Virus record (IMG/VR): IMGVR_UViG_3300031521_000316
Coordinates: 1 to 26,277 of that record
Source: a virus
Length of the DNA stretch: 26,277 nt
Reading direction: 5' to 3' (one strand)
The notes under the pieces were generated by a model, which was not told the DNA's origin, ran no database searches, and was given only the letters and a program-made list of their open reading frames with translations. Positions within the stretch are counted from its first letter, which is position 1, and every line of letters starts with the position of its first letter. Of the stretch, positions 1,896 to 7,961 are shown in pieces. A program made the position numbers and the translations under genes.

Positions 1896-2558
1896 TTATC
1901 CAAGTTCAATTGTAATATTGCTTCTATATCTAACAGGAACTTCAATAGCATCTTTTACTGACCACCCTCTATCAATTCTGCGCCTAAAAGTACCTGAATC
2001 AATGTTAAACTCTTTATCTATTTCTAATGCATTATACAGTTTGCCATTATAATTATAAAATACATTATTACGACGATTATTAGCTTGCTCTTCAGCATTA
2101 GACCATTTACAATTACCAGGTTCGTAATTACCATTGTTATCTCTTCTATCGATAGAGTGATCGTCTGATGGTCTAGGTCCCATATCTGCATAGAAGTTTT
2201 CAAATGAATTCAACCATCTATCACAAACAGCAATGCCTCTAGCACCATAATCATTATGTTTATGTTGATTTGGATTTGTGCATCGTTGTATCATCTGATT
2301 CTATATACCATATTCAGGCACGTGGCTAAGTCCGTGAGTGGCGTTATTTTGACCTAAACGATTAGCGTGTTCTTTTTGAAGACATCCGTAACTTTTAGTA
2401 TCTTTTTTTATGAGATTAGTTGATTTAACGTCTACAATATTACCACATTCACATTTACATTCCCATAAAACATAACCTTCTTTTGATCGACCTTTTTCTG
2501 ATATTACAGTCAACCTATCAAATTTAATACCAATTAAATTTTTTAATTTGTCTGACAT
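1896..2558 (-). pseudogene. HNH homing endonuclease, split by an in-frame amber codon
   Basis: Two open stretches, 2558-2301 and 2294-1896, lie in the same frame and are separated only by TAG AAT CAG. Reading the TAG at 2301-2303 as TGG gives one continuous protein of about 220 residues. The N-terminal half has the GIKFDRLTVI opening and a Cys cluster (WECKCECGN) common in phage HNH enzymes. The C-terminal half has the HNH core, with HSIDRRDNNGNYEPGNCKWS and a later NNRRN, followed by a small C-terminal region (GKLYNALEI) like intron-encoded DNA-binding modules. A second probable lesion is SYGCL where family members usually have SCGCL, losing a metal ligand. Both lesions would be G-to-A changes on the coding strand. 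The start at 2558 has AGGAG 10 bases upstream; an ATG at 2567 lies too close to it. Re-initiation at 2294 might still give the C-terminal half. Confidence 0.8.
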
Positions 2559-2669: not shown

Positions 2670-3068
2670 TTAATCAATTGATATATTGATATTGCTATAG
2701 CCATTCTGTACTAATGCGTTTCTTATTCTTGGTACATCATTAGCTGTTACATTGCCAATCTTAATAGAAATTGTCGAGCTAGTTACAAGTTCAATTGTTT
2801 CAGCTTTAATCCAAGCAATTCCAAGAATAACGACCTGACCACTCATTGTTTTAATTTTAACGTAATCGTATCCGTTAGGATCGTTCGGTGTTCCTGATGG
2901 GAGATACGGATAAAACTGAACGTGTCTAGCTTCGGTATCCATTTCTTTATTTGCCATATCACGATCCATAATTGCTAGAACCGTAACACCTTTGAAATTG
3001 CTGCCTAATAACGACAGTGGGTAGACATCAAAATTATAAACATTTCTAATAGAAAGCTGAACGCTCAT
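2670..3068 (-). CDS. Hypothetical beta-rich protein, possibly SH3-fold type, 132 aa
   Basis: The start has GAGG 7 bases upstream and lies 9 bases after the TGA of the previous gene, so this is the last gene of the 6098-2670 operon. The protein opens MSVQLSIRNVYNFDVYPLSL and contains SGTPNDPNGYDYVKI, VVILGIAWI and NDVPRIRNALVQNGY. From memory, similar proteins in phiKZ-like phages are annotated as SH3-fold or hypothetical proteins. No membrane segment or catalytic motif is visible. Unlike the upstream operon genes it is beta-rich and not obviously a member of their paralog family. The role is unknown. Confidence 0.7.
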   Translation of the reverse strand: MSVQLSIRNVYNFDVYPLSLLGSNFKGVTVLAIMDRDMANKEMDTEARHVQFYPYLPSGTPNDPNGYDYVKIKTMSGQVVILGIAWIKAETIELVTSSTISIKIGNVTANDVPRIRNALVQNGYSNINISID

Positions 3069-3077
3069 TGGTGTACC

Positions 3078-3452
3078 TCAATATGGTAAATGATGAAGAA
3101 CTATGTCTGTTCCTAGAAAACGATCGAAAAAGTATGGGAAACTATTATCACAGAATAAACCATTTTCTTTCAATCTTTCATAAACGCTAGTAACAAGAAC
3201 GTTCACAGCTTGATCGAGCCGCACTATCTTTTTTTCATCATTTAAAAAATCATGATCAATAAGTCTGGTGTAATCTGGAAAACTATCGCTATACTCAATT
3301 ACTCCGCTATCATCATTCAACAACATCGAAATAACTTGGGTCATGATTTCGTTTAAATCAATTCGATTAAAAATTCCAGCAACGTCTTGCATAAACAAAT
3401 CAATTAAATCGTCAGCTCTAATAATTACATATTTCGGATAATTGTTGTCCAT
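3078..3452 (-). CDS. Tandem-array paralog, 124 aa, unknown function
   Basis: The start at 3452 has no clear ribosome site and lies 15 bases after the previous stop, so translation is probably coupled. The protein begins with a short hydrophobic strand (YVIIRADD) followed by helix (LIDLFMQDVAGIF). It ends SFPYFFDRFLGTDIVLHHL. The strand-helix opening and the aromatic ending with LD/LG..IVL match the neighbouring genes at 3468, 3951 and 4362. No catalytic motif is visible. Confidence 0.65.
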   Translation of the reverse strand: MDNNYPKYVIIRADDLIDLFMQDVAGIFNRIDLNEIMTQVISMLLNDDSGVIEYSDSFPDYTRLIDHDFLNDEKKIVRLDQAVNVLVTSVYERLKENGLFCDNSFPYFFDRFLGTDIVLHHLPY

Positions 3453-3467
3453 GATGTTTTTAATTAA

Positions 3468-3944
3468 TCACGATGCATCTGATACTTCGATTACATCAGT
3501 TATTTTTGGTGGAATAAAACTAGCTAAAACAATATCTTTATCCAACATTTGTTGAAATTGATAAAACAGATAGCCGTCACGATATGCTTTGATTCTACGG
3601 AGTTCATTAACAATAATACAACCAAATGCATAGGTTGCATTGCTAATGCTTGTAACGTCATTTACGTAGTTTGTAAGCAAACGACTATTAATTACATTTT
3701 CTTGAATTGATTCAAAACAAGATGGACCAAGACAATTTTTCATCAATGTCATACACTCATTCGCTAATCTTATTTCAGCATCTTTCTCAAACATTATTGA
3801 CTGAAGAATTAATTGAATAATTTCAAATTCATTTATGTCTAATTCTTCAAGTAGTGTAATCTTTGAACGTAATTCTTTAATTAATGCGCTAGTGTCTAAA
3901 ATGATATTAGATATCGCTAGTTCCCTGTTTACTTGATCTTTCAT
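3468..3944 (-). CDS. Tandem-array paralog, 158 aa, unknown function
   Basis: The start at 3944 has GAGGG about 10 bases upstream and lies 6 bases after the stop of the gene before it. The protein is mostly helical, opening with NIILDTSALIKELRSKITLL. Its end, YRDGYLFYQFQQMLDKDIVL, aligns closely with YVDGFFQYSFQQLLDYNTVV in the next upstream gene (3951-4349). This is the clearest sign that these genes arose by duplication. No enzyme motif or membrane span is visible. Confidence 0.7.
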   Translation of the reverse strand: MKDQVNRELAISNIILDTSALIKELRSKITLLEELDINEFEIIQLILQSIMFEKDAEIRLANECMTLMKNCLGPSCFESIQENVINSRLLTNYVNDVTSISNATYAFGCIIVNELRRIKAYRDGYLFYQFQQMLDKDIVLASFIPPKITDVIEVSDAS

Positions 3945-3950
3945 TTCTAA

Positions 3951-4349
3951 TTATCCCTCGTTAATTTTACTTAAAACAACTGTGTTGTAATCCAGCAATT
4001 GTTGAAATGAATACTGAAAAAAACCATCCACATATCCATTAAGACTAAGTATTTTATTTTTTAATTTATTACATAATTTAACAACGGCAGACATTATTCG
4101 TTGTTGATCAAATTCATCAAGTCGGGTATTTTCATACAACCCTTCTCCTTTAGCCATATCCATTGCAACATTTAATACCATTCCAGCATAAACATCTTCT
4201 TCAGCTACTGCTATTGTGTCGAATAATTGACTGAGTACAGCCTCAATATCAGGCGTTGGTAAATCAACGTTATTTAATACAGCCCTAAAATCATCTAGTT
4301 CTTGTTTAAAGTCTAGAATAATTAAATCAGGCATGTTTTTATAATTCAT
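3951..4349 (-). CDS. Tandem-array paralog, 132 aa, unknown function
   Basis: The start at 4349 has GAGGTGATGT directly before the ATG. The protein is acidic and helical, opening MPDLIILDFKQELDDFRAVL after a short lead. It ends YVDGFFQYSFQQLLDYNTVV, sharing the Y-x-DG...Y-x-FQQ-x-LD pattern with the protein at 3468-3944. Spacing to both neighbours is 6-12 bases, so it is part of one operon. Confidence 0.7.
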   Translation of the reverse strand: MNYKNMPDLIILDFKQELDDFRAVLNNVDLPTPDIEAVLSQLFDTIAVAEEDVYAGMVLNVAMDMAKGEGLYENTRLDEFDQQRIMSAVVKLCNKLKNKILSLNGYVDGFFQYSFQQLLDYNTVVLSKINEG

Positions 4350-4361
4350 ACATCACCTCAT

Positions 4362-4742
4362 TTAATGCGGGTTTATTTGAGTCCCAATAATAAAATCATC
4401 GCCAAACCATTTCCAGTAAGATATTATTATTGAAGAATTACGTGATTTAAATAAATCAATCATCATTTCATTAATAGCAATAGTTATTAATTCCACAGCT
4501 AAATCAATGCATTCACTTCTGAATTCATATTCAGTAAGATATTCCATAACAGCATCAACACTGTTTAGATAATCAATTCTTATTTTATTTAATACATCAT
4601 CCAACCCTCTATTGGTACTAACGCGCGATAGTATTGTGTCTCTTATAACACCTTTTACTCCGTCGTTATAAAACATAAATAATTCATCGTATTTTTGAAA
4701 CAAACGAAGTATGTCCTTAGTTGGAAGGATAAAAATAACCAT
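4362..4742 (-). CDS. Tandem-array paralog, 126 aa, unknown function
   Basis: The start at 4742 has AAGGA 8 bases upstream. It opens with a strand then helix (MVIFILPTKDILRLFQKYDE), like the other members. The middle is helical, and the end has SIIISYWKWFGDDFIIGTQI in the place where neighbours have an aromatic stretch followed by LD or LG and IVL. Similarity to the other members is weak but consistent in layout and length. Confidence 0.65.
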   Translation of the reverse strand: MVIFILPTKDILRLFQKYDELFMFYNDGVKGVIRDTILSRVSTNRGLDDVLNKIRIDYLNSVDAVMEYLTEYEFRSECIDLAVELITIAINEMMIDLFKSRNSSIIISYWKWFGDDFIIGTQINPH

Positions 4743-4756
4743 TGATTATTTCCTTA

Positions 4757-5212
4757 TTATTCAAAACCAATATTTTCTTCTATTTTTAATTTAGCTATTG
4801 TATCCTGATATGGTGGCGATACGAATAAATCGCATTCATTACAAAGAGTATAACGATATTCGTTATCTGAATTAAAAAATGCATTAGGTACAAATGTCGT
4901 TATGGCGTCTACGATAGCATTAAAAACTTCACTAGCTGTTTTATTTGCAATGTCTTTTGGCAACCCGTGACGCATTAACAATAATGTTGATGGTGGAAGA
5001 TAGCCCAATCCCTCAGTATCATTTTGTTGATTAAATATCTCATGAATCATTAAAGAGATAAATTCACAACCATCATAATCTAGCATGTTGGATTGATTTG
5101 AAACCAATCTATTGTGCTCTAAATTAAAAATTGCAAATTCTTTAAATCTCTGTTTTAAAATTCCAACAGGTTCCATTAATGAAATCAGAATGCTATCGTT
5201 GTTCTCCATCAT
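4757..5212 (-). CDS. Tandem-array paralog, 151 aa, unknown function
   Basis: The frame is open to 5284, but that start would lie inside the previous gene by more than 60 bases. The ATG ATG at 5212-5207 follows a GAAG site and sits 10 bases after the previous stop, so 5212 is chosen. The protein opens MMENNDSILISLMEPVGILK, again a strand followed by helix. It ends with a Cys-containing segment LCNECDLFVSPPYQ and an acidic tail. The C-x-x-C may be fortuitous. Confidence 0.65.
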   Translation of the reverse strand: MMENNDSILISLMEPVGILKQRFKEFAIFNLEHNRLVSNQSNMLDYDGCEFISLMIHEIFNQQNDTEGLGYLPPSTLLLMRHGLPKDIANKTASEVFNAIVDAITTFVPNAFFNSDNEYRYTLCNECDLFVSPPYQDTIAKLKIEENIGFE

Positions 5213-5222
5213 TTCAATTCTT

Positions 5223-5708
5223 CTATAAACGTAATGGGCGTTCAGTTGTTTTAAATTCCCAACCGTGTTCTTGTGTCCAAGCATGAATTCGAAAATCTAT
5301 ACTTTTCTCTATAATGATATCGCCATTCATGGAATTTCTAAAATGGATTATCCATTTGTCTTTACCAATAAAGGCACCAATGTCGATTCGCATATCCATT
5401 AAAAGTGTTTCGATTAATTCGTATACTTCTAATGTGTGTTTGTATTCTGGACAAATAAATTCTTCCCACATATCAACAATGCTTTTTGATTTACAGCGTG
5501 TCCACGCTGAGTTATCGATTAGCATTTTATCGATATATGCATTAATGATTTTAATTCCTCTATCTGTTCTTATTCTTAAAGCAGCTTTGTCTTTATGAAT
5601 TGTATTTGGTGATATTAGTGGTATTAAATATCTCGCAGCCACTACTTCGATCGTTGTTGCCAATTCAGTTGGATCAAACACATAAATGCTCTGAATTTCA
5701 GTTTGCAT
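5223..5708 (-). CDS. Tandem-array paralog, 161 aa, unknown function
   Basis: The start at 5708 has AAGGG 8 bases upstream and lies 3 bases after the stop of the previous gene. The protein opens MQTEIQSIYVFDPTELATTI (strand, then helix) and is rich in Ile and Arg. It contains LIETLLMDMRIDIGAFIGKD and DIIIEKSIDFRIHAW near the end. It fits the operon family by length, position and opening, but it is a remote member. Confidence 0.65.
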   Translation of the reverse strand: MQTEIQSIYVFDPTELATTIEVVAARYLIPLISPNTIHKDKAALRIRTDRGIKIINAYIDKMLIDNSAWTRCKSKSIVDMWEEFICPEYKHTLEVYELIETLLMDMRIDIGAFIGKDKWIIHFRNSMNGDIIIEKSIDFRIHAWTQEHGWEFKTTERPLRL

Positions 5709-5711
5709 TAT

Positions 5712-6098
5712 TTATACCCTTAATTTAAATAGCTCTGGATTAGAATAGTATTTTATAAACAAATCAAATTCTGTTAATCCAATTTCGATTGTGTTGTTAT
5801 CGTTATATATTATCGGAGCTTTAATATGAAAACTTGTTAATACACTTAATGGTATTGGTAAGTGCGTATTTAATTCGCTATGAAACACATTAAATGGATA
5901 TTTATTATGTTCATGATTTTTATCAAATAAATGATAAATTAATTCTAATTCTTCTGCTAAAATCCATTGAATAGCTTTCTTCTCATCAAAAATAAATGTA
6001 CCATAATGATTGCACATAATAGAATTTAGCGGCGGTCTAATGACTGCTAGGTATTCTCTTATGTATTGAATTAAAGTCGCTCTATGAGCCAGCAACAT
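5712..6098 (-). CDS. First gene of the tandem array, about 128 aa, unknown function
   Basis: The frame is open to a TTG at 6131 with no ribosome site, and an ATG at 6119 has a weak one. The ATG at 6098 has a strong GGAGGG five bases upstream, so it is preferred. The longer forms would add FIPEGC, which resembles the strand opening of the other members, so 6119 remains possible. The protein contains YIREYLAVIRPPLNSIMC and ends TEFDLFIKYYSNPELFKLRV. It follows the terminator at 6154-6199, so it needs read-through or a promoter I could not identify. Confidence 0.6.
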   Translation of the reverse strand: MLLAHRATLIQYIREYLAVIRPPLNSIMCNHYGTFIFDEKKAIQWILAEELELIYHLFDKNHEHNKYPFNVFHSELNTHLPIPLSVLTSFHIKAPIIYNDNNTIEIGLTEFDLFIKYYSNPELFKLRV

Positions 6099-6153
6099 AC
6101 ATCCCTCCGGTATGAACATAGTATCCGTCAACTATGTTTTTATTTACTGTTTT

Positions 6154-6199
6154 AAAAAAATTCGTCATATACCCACATTAACCAATAGTGGCCAATGTG
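6154..6199 (-). terminator. Terminator with TATGACG and T7 at the end of the structured RNA
   Basis: On the minus strand CACATTGGCCA pairs with TGGTTAATGTG (6199-6174) in an 11-bp stem with two G-U pairs. On the plus strand those two positions would be A-C mismatches, which favours the minus strand. TATGACG (6163-6169) and seven T residues (6154-6160) follow, close to the TATGCCG plus T-run seen at other unit ends. Confidence 0.65.
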
Positions 6200-6968
6200 A
6201 GTACAGATTTTTCTTTTATTAATAAAAAATAAAGAAAATTTCAAACCAACTTCGGTTCAGCACTTACTACCAGTCAATTGATGCCCCATTTAATAGGTTG
6301 GCGTCTTTCAGGGACTGTCGTAATGTTCAAAAGGAAGTCGGTTTGAAATAATCTCTACATATGATAATATTTGGTCACTAATATATTCTCGTTAGAAAAC
6401 ATTATTAGTGACCACCCTTACTATAAATGCGCGAGCTAACCTAATAGCACATGGCAGAAGAAGGGGGTCAGTAAAGCTATACCGCATCTATGTAATGGAC
6501 GCAATTATCATCCGAGATGATCTGGTTTATTTACATGAGCAGGCTAGACACCACACAGGCGTCTTTTAAAGGATTTTGATGCTTAGTGTATTTAGATCAT
6601 CCAGCACTTAACGTCAACGCTCTATAAGCTCAGTTAGTGCCTTTGCAGGTGATGTCTAAAGTTTTTTAGACCTACAACAAATAACTCAGCAAATGAAACT
6701 ATCTATTGTAAGTCCTAGCGCACATCGGTGGAACACAGGTACTTGCCTTATAGATAGTCGCTACTCCTAGACATAGGAGCAGAGATTGGCTATTAATCAA
6801 TAATCTCGTCGAGATTGCCAATTTGATCTCTAGAGTTTGCTGAGCATTTAAATTGAATGGATTGAATAAAATATACTGCCAATCAATCCACTCATGAATG
6901 TTGTAGAGCCAACTAAAATCATAGTCTCTAAACATATTTATTTGCCAGTGCGCGGTACCTTTCTTATT
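6200..6968 (-). ncRNA. Candidate large structured non-coding RNA downstream of phuZ
   Basis: About 770 bases with no supported gene but many nested helices. Helix 6685-6693/6836-6844 (CTCAGCAAA/TTTGCTGAG) closes a junction holding three arms: 6698-6706/6750-6758, 6764-6769/6774-6779, and 6781-6790/6817-6831, the last with an inner hairpin 6802-6816. Others are 6238-6253/6334-6349 (15 pairs plus one wobble), 6373-6383/6403-6413, 6516-6523/6594-6601 enclosing 6546-6552/6558-6564, 6604-6612/6633-6640, 6654-6660/6665-6671 and 6858-6864/6884-6890. Wobble positions favour the minus strand: A-C on the plus strand becomes G-U on the minus strand in at least four helices, against one counter-example (in the 6698-6758 arm). 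It ends at the terminator 6154-6199 and is probably co-transcribed with phuZ. Exact 5' and 3' ends are not determined. Size and phage context recall the ROOL and GOLLD RNA classes, but no match is claimed. Confidence 0.6.
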
Positions 6969-7961
6969 TTAAAGAATCAATCCTGAACCCACAGCCTTAT
7001 CATTAGCTGTAAGCACTCCAGTTACTTTCAAACGCGCATCCTGAGCATGTTGCAATTCAGTCAAAATATGTTGCAGATGTTTTCCAATTTCAGGAACAAT
7101 ACCATCGCTAACAACAAAATGCATTGGTGTTTTTTCCAATACCTTATTGTAAGCATCGCTTGGCAAGAAACCAGAACACTGATATTCTGGCATGCTTTGC
7201 ATGGTTGTTGACATTCCTTCTTTAACTAGCGTAGCAACACTAATTACATTACCAATATCTTTTGGTGTATCTTGATTGCACAAAACCGTAAGCGATGCCA
7301 GTTGAACAGGATACGTCGTTACCTTATCAAAACGCAGCCAGTTAAACAAATCTCTTGAATCCATTTCACGGTTTTCACGTGAATACAGCGCACAAAGAGA
7401 TAGGACTGAAGATACCAACAATTGATCAGCTTCTTCGCGAGTAGTCGTATTGCTATTTTGCACATACAACATCACTACAGGAGCTTTACACATTTTTGCA
7501 ATTGATTCATATGACTTAATAGTTTTCAAACTATTCTCACAATCCAAGCGAGTGTCGACTGAACCGATTGCCATGATAATGGTAGGAACTTCACTCATCA
7601 ATAATTCACGAGTAAGCAAAGGTCCAATAACGGAACCACTACCACCACCAGCACTTGAAATAATGATATTCAAATCCGCTGGTTTGAATTGTTGAAGAAC
7701 TGCACGAACGCGGTCGCCAATTTCTTCGTGATTTTCGCTACGAACTTTTCCAGAACCATCGAGACCATCAATGATGTAGCAATGTGCTGGATCAATTTCC
7801 TTTCTCAAATTTGAAAGACTCGTATCGATATATGCAATATCGAGTTCTCCAAAACCAATTTCTTTAAGACCACGATACTGCTCCAGCAGCGATCCAATAT
7901 TAAGTCCTGCTCCCCCACAGGAATAGCAACGAATAACGCCTTTTTTGATCATTCCACTCAT
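6969..7961 (-). CDS. phuZ: Phage tubulin PhuZ (tubulin/FtsZ-fold GTPase), 330 aa
   Basis: The tubulin signature loop SSAGGGSGSVIG is at residues 102-113. A T1-like loop, SCGGAGLNIG, is at 14-23, and a second phosphate-loop-like segment, DGSGKVRSENHEE, at 68-80. A D-x-x-D pair at 201-204 (MDSRDLFNW) fits the T7 loop catalytic acids. Length suits the family. In phiKZ-like phages PhuZ forms dynamic filaments that centre the phage nucleus and deliver capsids to it. The start at 7961 has AAGGG about 9 bases upstream. The promoter is probably the early-type element at 8091-8107, giving a leader of about 130 bases. The C-terminus (AVGSGLIL) lacks the acidic tail described for the studied PhuZ proteins, so filament contacts may differ. 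Confidence 0.93.
   Translation of the reverse strand: MSGMIKKGVIRCYSCGGAGLNIGSLLEQYRGLKEIGFGELDIAYIDTSLSNLRKEIDPAHCYIIDGLDGSGKVRSENHEEIGDRVRAVLQQFKPADLNIIISSAGGGSGSVIGPLLTRELLMSEVPTIIMAIGSVDTRLDCENSLKTIKSYESIAKMCKAPVVMLYVQNSNTTTREEADQLLVSSVLSLCALYSRENREMDSRDLFNWLRFDKVTTYPVQLASLTVLCNQDTPKDIGNVISVATLVKEGMSTTMQSMPEYQCSGFLPSDAYNKVLEKTPMHFVVSDGIVPEIGKHLQHILTELQHAQDARLKVTGVLTANDKAVGSGLIL

Follow-up and report, generated by a model that had tools for sequence, protein, structure and literature searches.

What lies between a phage tubulin gene and the operon downstream of it, when 837 nt (6132–6968) separate the phuZ stop from the next gene, ORF 5712–6131, and everything is carried on the minus strand? 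We analysed this locus in a virus record from IMG/VR (26,277 bases), called the window here, meaning the whole stretch of DNA analysed. The best matches of its PhuZ are from phiKZ-like jumbo phages, the first being Burkholderia phage FLC9 (46% identical), and the gene 3′ of the gap matches the FLC9-group loci with tblastn E values of about 1e-9 to 1e-15. A sequence-only reading had placed a folded RNA without a credible gene in this gap, and both halves of that description agree with our results: we found no convincing gene, no reading frame being open across the whole gap, and the minus strand folds far better than expected from its composition.

Over 6154–6968, the minimum free energy (MFE) was −248.7 kcal/mol on the minus strand and −216.5 kcal/mol on the plus strand. 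Against dinucleotide shuffles the minus strand scored z = −5.6 (20 shuffles) and −9.3 (60 shuffles), and −8.4 without the terminator hairpin; 16 other 815-nt segments, taken on both strands, reached at most −6.1, except for −7.9 in one overlapping the gap. In 200-nt windows, z across the gap ranged from −1.1 to −4.6, moderately stable throughout (whole-window mean −1.0, s.d. 1.6), and several terminators elsewhere in the window were locally stronger. Because the gap is not extreme in short windows, the fold signal is spread along its length and does not come from a single hairpin. The strand energy difference (−32.2 versus −12.5 ± 6.8 in shuffles) favours the minus strand by about 2.9 s.d., supporting the orientation that had been argued from wobble pairs. 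All helices named in the earlier reading recur in the MFE structure with pairing probabilities of 0.9–1.0 (P in Table 1), including the helix that closes the three-arm junction, which is one pair longer than the 9 bp first described.

Table 1 Features of the phuZ-downstream region of the window
Feature	Position	Strand	Size, support or remark
phuZ, phage tubulin gene	6969–7961	−	330 aa; PHROG phrog_4733 tubulin PhuZ, E 4e-84
Putative large structured RNA, 3′ part of phuZ transcription unit	6154–6968	−	Fold z, strand bias, syntenic structured RNAs; no Rfam match; extent provisional
Putative ORF, only minus-strand candidate in the gap	6699–6935	−	78 aa; starts 33 nt past phuZ stop
Hairpin	6854–6894	−	12 bp; P 0.98
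5′ domain, junction with three arms	6684–6845	−	10-bp closing helix 6836–6845/6684–6693; P 0.92
Long hairpin	6372–6414	−	19 bp; P 0.96
3′ domain	6238–6349	−	112 nt; 16-bp closing helix 6334–6349/6238–6253; P 1.00
Terminal hairpin, probable terminator	6168–6205	−	17 bp; P 0.98
TATGACGA (6169–6162), then A, then T7 (6160–6154)	6154–6169	−	TATG = phiKZ late promoter core
Next gene, first in run of small genes	5712–6131	−	139 aa; homologue of FLC9 gp10

To our knowledge, very few large structured phage RNAs have been described and none has a settled function; for two of them, ROOL and GOLLD, assembly into RNA-only oligomeric cages would be one mark of membership. Membership of either family had been suggested as possible for the window RNA and is not supported, as cmscan with all 4227 families of Rfam 15 returned nothing relevant in the window up to E = 5; nor did the Rfam intron models match the window RNA, which is thus not recognisable as a group I intron. 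No tRNA was found in the window, and in related loci cmscan against Rfam gave only tRNAs or chance matches below threshold. GOLLD RNAs are large (often over 800 nt), phage-borne and elaborately folded, often lie by tRNAs and have unknown function (PMC12286853). The window RNA shares the size, the carrier and the elaborate fold, and tRNAs occur within the corresponding unit of two relatives (L068 and L070), but the window RNA and its relatives lack an Rfam match and are sited downstream of phuZ in jumbo phages of the phiKZ type. ROOL, another ornate phage-borne RNA with a 659-nt example (PMC12286853), is of similar size but differs in the same two respects, the Rfam match and the setting. Among known RNAs, these two as described come closest in kind to the window RNA. 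Our literature search found no report of phuZ-downstream RNAs like that of the window. As related phages have RNAs at this site that are equally large and folded but differ in sequence, the window RNA seems to be of a kind not yet described in phages.

Relatives of the locus were collected from IMG/VR and GTDB genomes using PhuZ and the divergent upstream gene 8098 as queries. The gene 3′ of the gap is homologous across them, and its distance from phuZ sorts them into groups. Group A consists of FLC9 (LC667451.1) and eight metagenomic relatives, including L006–L010, L013 and L034, with 738–771 nt between phuZ and the 5712 homologue. In group C (L012, L083 and L085, L012 being a Caballeronia arationis contig), about 780 nt lie within the slot after an acyl-carrier-like gene. 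Group D (L068, L070, L069 and L121) has about 850–1050 nt in L068, L069 and L070, with either tRNAs (L068, L070) or a zinc-ribbon gene (L069, L121) between the RNA and the terminator. L067 has a slot of 835 nt, and a more distant pair, group E (L035 and L038), carries a conserved, folded stretch of about 570 nt immediately downstream of phuZ. The window belongs to this positional set in slot, strand and length of noncoding sequence (837 nt, within 0.7–1 kb). In FLC9, the phuZ-downstream region is unannotated and agrees with the window in synteny, strand, size and terminal hairpin.

Further long phuZ-downstream regions without long ORFs were seen in L037 (600–1080 nt after phuZ), L025 and L019. 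We excluded L018, L021, L022 and others, in which the conserved part of an apparently noncoding gap mostly showed a gene-like codon pattern on the opposite strand. In L070, two tRNAs (3197–3360) follow the structured RNA and precede the terminal hairpin of the phuZ-downstream unit; a tRNA neighbourhood is also reported for GOLLD and ROOL (PMC12286853). The Caballeronia arationis contig (NZ_FCOG02000011.1, L012/L122; 143,740 bases) comes from a bacterial isolate assembly and holds jumbo-phage genes including phuZ.

The nearest PhuZ relatives of the window (L057, L016, L005 and L065) have no region of such size, and protein genes or short spacers stand in its place. In the PhuZ tree the window clusters with these four and L067 (96/89 support), and since only L067 has a similar region, the trait is patchy: it is either ancestral with losses or was gained more than once.

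Structure is conserved within the groups to different degrees. The group A consensus comprises 172 pairs, and 97.9% of its cells are paired; both sides had changed in 30 pairs, versus 15.4 ± 2.5 in shuffles, and slid controls collapsed; in group C (L012), 13 pairs were double-changed versus 6.2 ± 1.7 in shuffles. Consensus energies lay 12–16 s.d. below column-shuffled alignments in groups A, C and D and at −107 versus a shuffled mean of −42 (s.d. 4.4) in group E, figures that are somewhat generous because column shuffling ignores dinucleotides. The 14 double changes of group E fall inside the shuffled range (maximum 18), so support for this group comes from its energy and from its having no broken pairs. 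Group D, with many broken pairs, is the weakest. Sense-strand preference was seen in groups A, C and E, and the strands were even in group D. The FLC9 and Caballeronia groups thus have covarying, sense-strand structure, and the other groups have conserved structure that is weaker in detail.

Taken with the fold energy, the strand bias and the lack of a clear gene, these syntenic structured RNAs give good support to a large structured RNA in the window, encoded by the same strand as phuZ. The opposite reading, that the gap has no function as RNA and is a spacer or a remnant of decayed genes whose inverted repeats arose by chance, draws on the variability of the site, where close relatives carry protein genes or short spacers, and on the strong local hairpins found elsewhere in the window. 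We consider it improbable: z = −9.3 is sustained over 815 nt and accompanied by strand bias, conserved structure recurs in the same slot in several groups, and neither of the two ORFs tested yielded a Pfam or PHROG coding remnant.

By sequence, the window RNA stands apart. Searches of the phage and IMG/VR collections, including blastn against phages and a single-protein PhuZ scan, returned no homologue of it, and at E < 1e-3 blastn showed no similarity among the groups or between any group and the window, with a few very short matches at looser limits. Treating it as a homologue of the FLC9 group failed with nhmmer and with R1, the covariance model built on the conserved 5′ domain of group A. 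R1 scored FLC9-group members at 193–202 bits and gave no match to the window in a wide search; with filters off, the window reached at most 9.1 bits, away from the expected place. The FLC9 region, so alike in setting, is therefore unlike the window RNA in sequence and by covariance model, and the compensatory changes described above belong to the FLC9 and L012 groups.

Architecture offers some resemblance. Relatives have a helix of 10–15 bp around roughly 134–150 nt in a place similar to that of the window 5′ domain. L067 and the window share a layout in which a 10–11-bp helix around 145–162 nt is followed by a 9-bp helix around 88–92 nt and then a 16-bp helix around 102–112 nt, the last enclosing 102 nt near the 3′ end in L067 and 112 nt in the window; this likeness is only suggestive. 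Overall, the window RNA fits the set of its relatives by position, size, strand and fold but not by sequence.

We also considered a transcript of dual function, with a short peptide encoded at the 5′ end (6699–6935) and a structured RNA after it. Over its first 38 codons, this ORF had a codon score of 0.075; genes scored 0.215 ± 0.086 when read in frame and −0.49 or −0.81 when read out of frame. Pfam and PHROG searches with the ORF gave no match. In the FLC9 group, an unannotated ORF of 74–75 aa lies directly after phuZ (L002 7054–7278; same place in L006–L010 and L034). It carries the motif MF...YHDFSWFPS.QAAA.RK, overlaps the start of the structured RNA and shows mostly synonymous changes in its middle part together with a 3-nt indel; given this synonymous bias, a short peptide from it is plausible. 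Counted from phuZ, it starts at 41–46 and ends at 265–273, compared with 34–270 in the window. Homology between the two ORFs was not accepted (P about 0.03; best of nine comparisons 0.006). The shared position and length and the synonymous changes in the FLC9 group speak for a dual-function transcript, but the window ORF shows no significant similarity to its counterpart and has a lower codon score than real genes, and for the window we give this reading little weight.

At the 3′ boundary, the unit closes with a hairpin close to TATGCCG in groups A, C, D and E and in L067; the window counterpart is TATGACGA, and a hairpin with TATG[C/A]CG also occurs at other gene ends within the window. The late promoter of phiKZ has a TATG core with transcription starting at its G (PMC4666361), and for this reason we read the end of the RNA, from its sequence, as probably a terminator with the next operon's promoter behind it. 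Elsewhere in the window, TATGCCG lies near gene ends at 834, 1471, 12916, 23875 and 26149, several times directly after a hairpin; these sites are candidate terminator-plus-late-promoter boundaries of this phage.

From its orientation and the terminator, we infer that the window RNA probably closes the phuZ transcription unit at its 3′ end. The phage polymerase would read past phuZ into the gap and transcription would stop at the terminal hairpin; the folded 3′ part might then be cut from the message or outlast it, leaving a stable product with a possible structural role in trans, of the kind envisaged for GOLLD and ROOL. What the sequences establish is the structure and its strand, the synteny, and the conserved structure of the relatives; transcription, processing and a role in trans are inferred. 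We lean, with modest confidence, towards this account, in which the window RNA is one of a fast-diverging set of large structured noncoding RNAs that this clade of phuZ jumbo phages carries between phuZ and a conserved operon of small genes, produced by read-through from phuZ and acting in trans.

Its main rival, which we judge rather unlikely, is a long structured 3′ untranslated region (UTR) acting only in cis to protect the phuZ message or tune the amount of PhuZ. A plain 3′ UTR rarely needs a conserved fold of 500–800 nt. The shared strand, the position directly after phuZ and the terminator-like final hairpin would all suit a cis element, but in L012, L083 and L085 the RNA follows the acyl-carrier-like gene and not phuZ directly, and in group D the tRNAs (L068, L070) or the zinc-ribbon gene (L069, L121) separate it from the terminator. 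This placement of the RNA in groups C and D, behind other genes or ahead of tRNAs, makes the cis reading less likely. A precedent for it comes from phiKZ, whose noncoding RNAs comprise one of about 100 nt, thought to be processed from the 3′ UTR of PHIKZ298, and one of about 180 nt from the 5′ UTR of p40 (PMC8545117). Although phiKZ is a related jumbo phage, its noncoding RNAs are thus much shorter, and the gap after phiKZ phuZ is 54 nt and holds no such region. A 2026 review mentions phiKZ non-coding RNAs only in general.

A more specific proposal, to our minds distinctly unlikely, is that these RNAs form one undescribed class within this jumbo-phage clade, kept by position while their sequences diverged beyond recognition, and serving the phase of infection that involves tubulin and the nucleus, whether by forming an assembly of RNA alone, by acting as a scaffold associated with ribosomes or filaments, or in some similar way. 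Under the set we favour, the gap downstream of phage tubulin becomes a place to seek more large structured RNAs, and as the phuZ-linked set includes a cultivated carrier, Burkholderia phage FLC9, whose region is unannotated, tests of expression, structure and knockdown are possible.

On the other side of the RNA, the run of small genes spans 2670–6131 on the minus strand, with products of about 125–175 aa each and several one-to-one homologues in relatives. Beyond it, ORFs 2301–2567 and 1896–2294 (minus strand) share a frame with one in-frame stop between them and jointly resemble an HNH-type homing endonuclease; in L016 the matching stretches are adjacent in a single frame.
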